From Halococcus saccharolyticus DSM 5350 (GTDB lineage: Archaea; Halobacteriota; Halobacteria; Halobacteriales; Halococcaceae), in NCBI RefSeq assembly GCF_000336915.1, contig NZ_AOMD01000004.1, forward strand, positions 1 through 41,771: DNA of 41,771 bases. Direction: 5' to 3'. Position 1 is the first letter of the stretch. Each line of letters opens with the position of its first letter. Position numbers and translations under genes: made by a program. Positions 2,459-41,771 of the stretch are shown here, piece by piece. Below the pieces are notes generated by a model that did not search any database, was not told the origin of the DNA, and worked only from the letters and a program-made list of their open reading frames with translations.

Positions 2459-4522
2459 GTGACGAGAGGACCGCCTACGCCCTCCATCCTTCCGACATCG
2501 TCCCGGCGGCGGTTCCTGAAGGCCGCCGCGGCGACCACCGCACTCGGGATGAGCGGCGTCGCCGGGGCACAGTCGACGGCGATTTTCGAGCTTGACGGGA
2601 ACACTACCGGCTGGGTCGGTCGAGTCCCTGACACGATCGCCGGGCAAACGAACCCCACGCTCTCCCTCACGCCCGGTGAGCGCTACGAGATCACGTGGAC
2701 CAACGTCGACGGACTGGACCACAACGTCGCACTGATCGACAGCGACGAGAACATACTCGAACGCACCGAAATCATCGCCGAGCAGGGTGCAACACAAACG
2801 CTCACGTTCACCGCGACCGAGGAGATGGCGGAGTATCTCTGTGAGGTACATCCGCAGTCGATGCGTGGCGACCTTCGTATAGACGGATCGACATCTACTA
2901 CAACGACCGCAGCTGAAGAGTCCTCGTCCGATCGGTTCATGCCGACGGGTGCAACAGTTCGGGTCGAAACCATCGCCGAGGGCGGGATGACCGCACCGAC
3001 GGCACTCGAAGTCCCGCCCGGTGACGACGATCGCCGCTTCGTGGTTGATCAAATCGGACAGGTTTTCACGCTCGGTGGGGATGGGTTGGAGCCGTTCCTC
3101 GACATCCGCGACCAGCTCGTCAACTTCGATAATCTTCCTGGTGAGAAGACGATCGACGAGCGCGGACTACTCGGACTTACCTTCCATCCAAACTTTCGTG
3201 ATAACCGGAAGTTCTACCTCCACTACAGCGCGCCGTCACGACCGGGGACGCCAAACGACTTCACCCATACTCAAGTGCTCTCTGAGTTTCGAGCGACCGA
3301 GGACTTCTCGGCCGGCGATCCCGACTCCGAACGCACCATCCTCGAAATCCCGTCGCCGTACTACACCCACAACGCCGGTGATATCCTGTTCGGTCCCGAC
3401 GACGGCTACCTCTACATGGGAATGGGCAACGGCGGCGGCGATCTCCGGATTCCCGGAAACGTCGACGACTGGTACGAAAACCGTGGCGGCAACGGGCAGG
3501 ACGTCGACGAGAACCTGCTGGGATCGATCCTCCGGATCGACGTCGACAGTCAAGAGGACGACAAACCCTACGGTATTCCCGACGATAACCCCCTCGTCGG
3601 CGAGGAAGGACTCGACGAACAGTTCGCGTGGGGCTTTCGCAACCCCTGGCGAATGAGCTTCAACAAGGGCAATCTGTTCGTCTGTGACGTCGGCCAATTC
3701 GAATACGAAGAGGTCAGTATCGTTGTGAAAGGGAAAAACTACGGCTGGAACGTCAAGGAAGGAAGTCACTGTTTCGCCAGCGCGGAGCGCCGGCCGATCT
3801 CGGACTGCCCGGACCGGACTCCCGAAAACGTCCGCGGCGGCGAGCCGCTCATCGATCCGATCATCGAGTACCCACACACTTACGAGGGCGATGGCGTCGG
3901 CGTGGCTGTCACTGGCGGGACGATCTATCAGAACGCGACGATCCCTGCCCTTCGCGGGAAGTTCGTCTTCGGCGATTACAGCAAAACCGGTCGACCGGGC
4001 GGCTCGGTGTTCGCCGCAACGCCCCCGAGAGAGGGGCAGTGGTCCTTGGAGGAAGTCACGTTCGAGGGGTACGAGAACGGGACGCTCGATTCGTACGTAC
4101 TCGGCGTCTACCCCGATTCACGTGGCGAACTCTACGTCTTGACGACCGACAACCTCGGGGTTCGTGGTGAGACCGGCGCGGTCCACAAGATCAACCCTCC
4201 CAGTCCCGAGACGGCGACGTCGACTGCCACCGCAACGCCCGACCAACCACCGACCGCGACGCCAACGCCGACACCAACGCCCACGCCGACCCCGACGCCG
4301 ACACCCACACCGACGCCAACGGCGTCACCGACACCGACGAGCGATGCGACGGCCACGACCGATCGATCCACCGCAACGACGGACGCCGGGACGACTGGAG
4401 CCACCAACACCGGCGAGAGCGAGGGATGGGTCAGTCGCGTCGATGGCCCGGGATTCGGCGTGGTCGCAGCCCTCGCCGCCATCGGCGGCGTCGCTGCCCG
4501 CCTGCTTTCGAAACGCGAGTAA
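2459..4522 (+). CDS. secreted cupredoxin-PQQ-type sugar dehydrogenase fusion, PGF-CTERM anchored
   Basis: A 687-aa protein in four parts. First is a Tat signal (SRRRFLKAA at about residues 15-23, then a hydrophobic stretch ending GAQS). Next, at about residues 40-145, is a halocyanin/plastocyanin-like domain with all four type-1 copper ligands: H88, C128, H131 and M135 (YLCEVHPQSM). At about 165-570 is a soluble glucose/sorbosone-dehydrogenase beta-propeller (HNAGDILFGPDDGYLYMG, then AWGFRNPWRMSF and DVGQFEYEEV). Last come a PT-repeat linker, a Thr-rich stretch and a PGF-CTERM tripartite anchor (PGF at about 664, hydrophobic helix, basic end). By family it should oxidise a sugar or aldose outside the cell with PQQ. 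Export by Tat and ArtA-type processing are inferred. The fused copper domain suggests built-in electron transfer to the respiratory chain. Actual PQQ binding and substrate are not visible. Confidence 0.85.
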   Translation: MTRGPPTPSILPTSSRRRFLKAAAATTALGMSGVAGAQSTAIFELDGNTTGWVGRVPDTIAGQTNPTLSLTPGERYEITWTNVDGLDHNVALIDSDENILERTEIIAEQGATQTLTFTATEEMAEYLCEVHPQSMRGDLRIDGSTSTTTTAAEESSSDRFMPTGATVRVETIAEGGMTAPTALEVPPGDDDRRFVVDQIGQVFTLGGDGLEPFLDIRDQLVNFDNLPGEKTIDERGLLGLTFHPNFRDNRKFYLHYSAPSRPGTPNDFTHTQVLSEFRATEDFSAGDPDSERTILEIPSPYYTHNAGDILFGPDDGYLYMGMGNGGGDLRIPGNVDDWYENRGGNGQDVDENLLGSILRIDVDSQEDDKPYGIPDDNPLVGEEGLDEQFAWGFRNPWRMSFNKGNLFVCDVGQFEYEEVSIVVKGKNYGWNVKEGSHCFASAERRPISDCPDRTPENVRGGEPLIDPIIEYPHTYEGDGVGVAVTGGTIYQNATIPALRGKFVFGDYSKTGRPGGSVFAATPPREGQWSLEEVTFEGYENGTLDSYVLGVYPDSRGELYVLTTDNLGVRGETGAVHKINPPSPETATSTATATPDQPPTATPTPTPTPTPTPTPTPTPTPTASPTPTSDATATTDRSTATTDAGTTGATNTGESEGWVSRVDGPGFGVVAALAAIGGVAARLLSKRE
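4256..4341 (+). repeat. Pro-Thr repeat-coding minisatellite
   Basis: About 14 tandem copies of a degenerate hexamer (ACN CCN) encode an uninterrupted (PT)n linker between the sugar-dehydrogenase propeller and the PGF-CTERM anchor. Third bases vary among C, G and A, so the array is old or under codon-level drift rather than freshly expanded. Its length is likely to vary between strains. Confidence 0.85.
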
Positions 4523-40317: not shown

Positions 40318-41744
40318 ATGATCGCCGACCTCGCGGGCCGGCTCCGCGACGAGGCTCGCCGGGCGAACGAGCGGCGGCTGCTCGTGCTCGCGGGTGAGCG
40401 CGAGGCGTGCTACACGGCGGCGGTGAACGCCCTCGACGGCGCGGGGATTCGTGAGTCGGAGACAACAGTAGTCGCGACCGAAAGCGCACTCGGCGCTGAT
40501 TTCCGCGATTGCGAGCACGTCACTCCGAAGCGCGCTAACACACTCCTCGGGACCACCCGGACGGCGGTCGTGCTCGACTGTCACGACGAGTGCCGGCCGA
40601 ACGCGCTCGGCCGCACGGTCGGCGCGGTCGACGGCGGCGGATTGGTGGTGCTCTGTACGCCGTCGCTCGATGCGTGGCCCGCCCGCCGGGACGATTTCGA
40701 CGAGACGCTTGCCGTCCCACCGTTCGACGGCAAGGCTGTCGGCGGTCGGTTCCGGACTCGACTCGTCGAGACGCTCTACGCTCATCCTGGGATCGCGATC
40801 GTCGATGTCGATTCCGGGGCCGTCGAGCGTGACGGGCTTACCGACCCACCTGCAGCAGAGGAGCAGCGGTCGCCAGCGCCACCGGACAACCACGCGTTCC
40901 CGCAGGCGGCCTACGACGCCTGTCTCACGGCTGACCAAGCCAACGTCCTCCAAACCCTCGAACGGCTGCGCGAGCCGGGACAGGCGCTCGTCGTAGAGGC
41001 CGACCGCGGGCGCGGGAAGTCGAGCGCCGCCGGCCTCGCCGCGGGCGCGCTGGCAGCTGAGGGGAAAGACGTGCTCGTGACTGCACCAAGCTACCGGAGC
41101 GCCGCCGCGGTGTTCGTCCGGGCGCACGAACTCCTGACGAGCCTCGATGCGCTCGCCGGCACGGATCGTGACGAGAACCCACAGCGACTCGACACGCCAG
41201 ACGGCGGACGGGTAGTGTTCGCGGAGCCGGCGGCCGCCGTCGATGGCGACGCACTCGCCACAGTCGACGTCGCCATCGTCGACGAGGCCGCCGCGCTGCC
41301 CGTCGATCGGCTCTCGGCGTTCCTCGACGCGCCGGCGGTCGCGTTCGTCACGACCGTTCACGGCTACGAAGGGGCGGGGCGCGGGTTTGCGGTCCGGTTC
41401 CGCGACCGACTCGCCGAAAGCGCGTTCGACGTGACCGAGCAGCGACTCGACGACCCGATCCGGTACGCCGCCGGCGATCCGGTCGAGGTGTGGCTCTTCC
41501 GAGCCCTCCTGCTTGACGCACGTCCGCCCGTCGCACCAGTCGTCGCCAAGGCCACGCCCGAAACCGTGACCCACGAACGCCTCGCCGCTGACGAGCTGCT
41601 CGCCGACGAGACGCGACTTCGGGAGGCGTTCGGGCTCCTCGTCGCGGCCCACTACCGGACGGAGCCGAACGATCTCGCGCGACTGCTCGACGCGCCGAAC
41701 GTCACCGTGCACGCGCTGTGTCACGACGGTCACGTGGTGTCGGT
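40318..41744 (+). CDS. tmcA: tRNA(Met) cytidine acetyltransferase TmcA (partial, 3' end missing)
   Basis: The first 475 residues of a TmcA/Kre33-type enzyme, normally about 700-800 residues. Visible parts are the N-terminal DUF1726-like domain (MIADLAGRLRDEARRANERR), the RNA-helicase-like module with Walker A ADRGRGKSSAA (from residue 228) and Walker B VDEAAALPVDRLSAF (DEAA 322-325), and HGYEGAGRGFAVRFRDRL. The family uses ATP and acetyl-CoA to form N4-acetylcytidine, in bacteria at the wobble base of elongator tRNA-Met and in archaea also in rRNA. The GNAT acetyltransferase domain is missing because genomic sequence stops at 41744. The apparent residues CLLYTSLM that follow come from adapter sequence. 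Confidence 0.9.
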
Positions 41745-41771
41745 CTGTCTCTTATACACATCTCTGATGGC
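41745..41771 (+). other. Nextera/Tn5 mosaic-end plus 454 adapter contamination
   Basis: Bases 41745-41763 are CTGTCTCTTATACACATCT, the exact 19-bp reverse complement of the Tn5 mosaic end used in Nextera libraries. The following CTGATGGC matches the start of the reverse complement of the Roche-454 A adapter used in early Nextera kits. This is not genomic DNA. It should be trimmed, and the contig ends at 41744. Confidence 0.95.

Follow-up and report, generated by a model that had tools for sequence, protein, structure and literature searches.

Remnant of a first-generation Nextera adaptor interrupts tmcA at a contig end in the draft genome of Halococcus saccharolyticus DSM 5350

The last 27 letters of contig C4 in the assembly of Halococcus saccharolyticus DSM 5350 are almost certainly the remnant of a first-generation Epicentre Nextera adaptor, reached when sequencing ran past the end of a short insert. 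This remnant is a technical artefact, without biological novelty. The window analysed here spans contig C4 completely (41771 bases), while the genome (G000) comprises 36 contigs and 3449700 bases. Since the window covers the contig in full, the adaptor lies at a true contig end; the opposite end of C4 is adaptor-free, and no tRNA genes were found in the window. Four things were observed directly: the identity of the sequence, the break in homology, the continuation of tmcA on contig C5 and the recurrence of the adaptor across the genome.

The terminus of the contig reads ...GTGGTGTCGGT, followed by CTGTCTCTTATACACATCT and then CTGATGGC. The second of these elements is the 19-bp mosaic end of Tn5, given here as it appears on the plus strand; it carries no mismatches and is the only match to the mosaic end in the window with up to three mismatches allowed. 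The third is an eight-base tail closing at 41771, the final base of the window. In the published oligonucleotide list for the Epicentre Nextera kit, GCCTCCCTCGCGCCATCAG forms the 3' part of Adaptor 1, and GCCTTGCCAGCCCGCTCAG that of Adaptor 2 (PMC3699833). Reverse-complemented, the former begins with our tail, CTGATGGC. With these oligonucleotides, a mosaic end is followed either by CTGATGGCGCG.. (adaptor A) or by CTGAGCGGGC.. (adaptor B), and our tail agrees with adaptor A at 8/8 bases. Taken together, the contig end fits the mosaic end plus Adaptor 1 at 27/27 bases, with 8 of 19 adaptor bases present in the C4 copy, and both adaptor kinds, A and B, occur elsewhere in the genome. The first-pass annotation, which had seen here an untrimmed transposon-library adapter with a 19-bp mosaic end from 41745 on and synthetic bases behind it, is borne out on its main points.

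Later Illumina Nextera and Nextera XT chemistry shares the 19-bp mosaic end but continues it with CCGAGCC.. or GACGCTG.., so that the bases following the mosaic end differ from the C4 tail. A search for these later continuations across the genome gave no matches, and we rejected this kit version on that ground.

One might also ask whether such a 27-mer could have arisen by chance in a GC-rich archaeal genome. However, 100 shuffles yielded no mosaic-end match, the reversed control pattern was found neither in G000 nor in any of the 392 sampled genomes, and the adaptor string was confined to 34 of these 392 assemblies. We therefore regard a chance origin as practically impossible.

The adaptor-derived string CTGTCTCTTATACACATCTCTGATGGC interrupts an open frame (40318–41769) that ends in ...HVVSV-CLLYTSLM. 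This frame is tmcA, encoding tRNA(Met) cytidine acetyltransferase, as it matches the NCBIfam equivalog NF041296 at 731 bits, above the cut-off of 700. The match spans profile positions 2–468 of 746 only, and the Pfam domains TmcA_N and NAT10_TcmA_helicase were recognised in this part. Relatives show 86–87% amino acid identity across all 475 residues, and their own frames reach about 750 amino acids. At the nucleotide level, agreement with the nearest relative (G003) falls at the junction from 97/100 bases upstream to 5/27 downstream, which agrees with the expectation of the first-pass annotation that the genome would continue differently after 41744. The same break at 41744/41745 was seen in three further genus mates: relatives read ...HVVSVALLAREG..., while contig C4 reads ...HVVSVCLLYTSLM. 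Base 41745, which completes the codon for Val-476, is likewise C in the relatives, and the position of the junction is hence uncertain by one base. As all codons from 41746 on consist of adaptor throughout, the earlier count of eight false TmcA residues (CLLYTSLM) is exact.

Table 1. Coordinates of the adaptor-derived features and of the gene part they interrupt (first four rows, positions in contig C4), with further scars and carriers
Feature	Location	Strand	Basis
Genuine N-terminal part of tmcA (475 codons and 2 bases)	40318..41744	+	NF041296, Pfam, relatives
Synthetic Tn5 mosaic end AGATGTGTATAAGAGACAG, 19 bp	41745..41763	-	Exact match; shuffles 0; PMC3347997
Epicentre Nextera Adaptor 1, first 8 bases past the mosaic end, GCCATCAG on -	41764..41771	-	Oligonucleotide in PMC3699833; 27/27 fit
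Eight spurious codons (CLLYTSLM) added to the tmcA frame	41746..41769	+	Relatives read VALLAREG...
Interior scars with a single coordinate, G000	C2:7423, C11:4093, C11:36916, C21:209572, C27:46468, C30:262959, C33:34646, C33:118138, C33:120077		
Head-to-head joins (adaptor, N, adaptor)	C21:345661-345724, C23:20590-20646, C30:328340-328376, C33:198350-198409		
Streptomyces/Actinoplanes carriers	L027, L031, L037, L050, L055; L034, L046, L101, L105		

The remainder of the gene was found in the same genome, at C5:2–757. There, an open frame with 86% identity to G003 represents the C-terminal part of tmcA; contig C5 opens with this piece of the gene, which keeps the frame and is correctly oriented. 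In alignments with G003 and with another relative, G002, C4 breaks off at relative position 2927 and C5 resumes at 3006; in each comparison, the interval amounts to 78 bases, equal to 26 codons. With an interval of exactly this length in two relatives, about 26 codons of tmcA are missing from the assembly. As judged from these alignments, tmcA is split by an assembly gap and not truncated, since the missing C-terminal part lies on C5 just past this gap. Such a conclusion accords with the earlier warning against reading a real gene truncation into the contig end. Admittedly, the open frame does end early at the contig end, as it would if the strain had a truly truncated or rearranged tmcA, with the adaptor lying at the break by coincidence. 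Yet the absent part opens C5 in frame and in the correct orientation, 26 codons past the break, and tmcA was found in all nine same-genus genomes searched, in eight of them over the entire query length. A genuine truncation is, accordingly, very unlikely.

Another scenario that deserves consideration is that of a real mobile-element end, belonging either to Tn5/IS50 or to a laboratory mini-Tn5, inserted into tmcA. The 19-mer is, after all, a functional transposase recognition end. The mosaic end itself is a chimera of the Tn5 outside and inside ends, optimised for use in vitro (PMC3347997). However, the natural outside end of Tn5/IS50, CTGACTCTTATACACAAGT, has 16/19 bases in common with the C4 mosaic end and differs from it at the other 3/19 positions (PMC3347997), and a genome search allowing three mismatches, which is able to catch natural Tn5 ends, returned adaptor copies only. 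What comes after the mosaic end is not transposon DNA, either in C4 or elsewhere, but sequencing-primer bases of two alternating kinds. Moreover, tmcA resumes on C5 after a loss of about 78 bases and without a 9-bp target duplication. A search of the genome for the Tn5-type transposase family PF02281 gave no match, the control genomes being silent too. Overall, we consider an inserted element extremely unlikely, and the caution of the first-pass annotation that the sequence might be mistaken for a mobile-element end was well placed.

The artefact extends far beyond C4. With up to three mismatches allowed, 25 adaptor copies were found at 21 sites of the assembly, in keeping with the tagmentation library that had been proposed from the C4 end. 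Of the 72 contig ends inspected, eight belong to these sites. The remaining 17 copies occupy 13 interior sites, which are scaffold joins, every one of them beside N; all 21 sites are, in other words, either contig ends or scaffold joins. Where their length suffices, the tails are identical to adaptor A or B, apart from one mismatch overall (in the copy at C33:198350). As a side observation, contig ends fall into two groups, with at least 19 adaptor bases (8 ends) or fewer than 5 (the remaining 64 of 72), and tails of 5–18 bases were never seen.

The 13 interior scars probably break genes and replace real sequence. In the head-to-head join on C33 (Table 1), 60 bases of adaptor and N stand in G000 where G003 has about 108 bases. 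The flank of the C21:345661 scar matches many paralogues in G003, and the gene concerned, read from this flank, looks like an ABC-transporter ATPase. Separately, the stretch just past the C27:46468 scar (L016:1530–1545) recurs in inverted orientation some 1.3 kb further downstream, at about L016:2875, and G003 also shows a 49-base match of 96% nearby, on the other strand (G003:C2:55949–55997). Either a genuine inverted repeat or a misjoin could account for this arrangement.

As for the origin of these remnants, the library would have been made with Tn5 transposase loaded with first-generation Epicentre Nextera oligonucleotides. Reads longer than their insert would leave genomic DNA and enter the mosaic end and then Adaptor 1. 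Under such read-through, reads at 41744 should switch from genomic DNA to CTGTCTCTTATACACATCTCTGATGGCGCGAGGGAGGC. Tagdust is a whole-read filter; reads that are partly adaptor may have survived cleaning, and partial tails may have escaped Tagdust. Where genomic coverage failed, as it presumably did over some 78 bases inside tmcA, the assembler would have carried the contig on into the adaptor before coming to a halt. Read pairs might later have bridged such ends, in which case the scaffolder would have retained the adaptor within the contig, next to a short stretch of N. We found no evidence against the read-through explanation. It is tempting to suppose that contig runs into adaptor mark a reproducible sequence property of haloarchaeal genes at which coverage fails, for instance strong GC-rich hairpins or Tn5 bias, but we think this unlikely.

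The same string is also present outside this genome. Among 392 sampled Halobacteriales assemblies, about 9% carry a 23-base adaptor string, and every one of these carriers holds several copies, while the other sampled assemblies have none. The named carriers among the matches listed are mostly haloarchaeal records with NZ_AO.. accessions, including Halorubrum, Haloferax, Natrinema, Natrialba, Natronococcus, Haloarcula and Halococcus. Genome G001 has a scar at C46:89327, and Halococcus morrhuae DSM 1307 (L063) has one at position 1327 of an 8000-base stretch of contig_46; the two would coincide if this stretch began at 88001, and G001 is thus probably the same strain. A few Streptomyces and Actinoplanes drafts among the matches listed (NRRL 'Doro1' scaffolds; Streptomyces sp. 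rh34) were likewise seen to carry the first-generation Epicentre string. These haloarchaeal and actinobacterial drafts share the 26-bp string of mosaic end and first-generation adaptor, at contig ends as well as in contig interiors; they differ from the C4 case in species but not in the kind of artefact.

The adaptor pattern fits a project in which 59 haloarchaea were sequenced, whose libraries included PCR-free Epicentre Nextera preparations with transposase purified from E. coli, and in which the A5 assembler was used and only E. coli and vector contigs were removed after assembly (PMC4230888). In A5, reads are cleaned by SGA and adapter contamination by Tagdust, with scaffolding and extension by SSPACE (PMC3441570). 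We infer that this genome belongs to the same project from its genus mates, the style of the assembler and the version of the adaptor, not from its accession. The artefact is project-wide as well as genome-wide, interior scars included.

Overall, our analysis adds to the first reading of this contig end the version of the kit, the place where tmcA continues, the length of the gap and how far the artefact reaches, interior scars included. Adaptor scars create false gene ends, such as CLLYTSLM, and false breaks within contigs at scaffold joins; at the two joins measured, roughly 80–110 bases were lost. They could pass for transposon ends, pseudogenes or strain-specific truncations. Depending on the frame in which the adaptor is read, the false C-termini are CLLYTSLM, VSYTHL-stop or LSLIHIS, and these peptides could help to find affected proteins in databases. 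The only use of the artefact is to caution that public haloarchaeal genomes still contain false gene ends and breaks.
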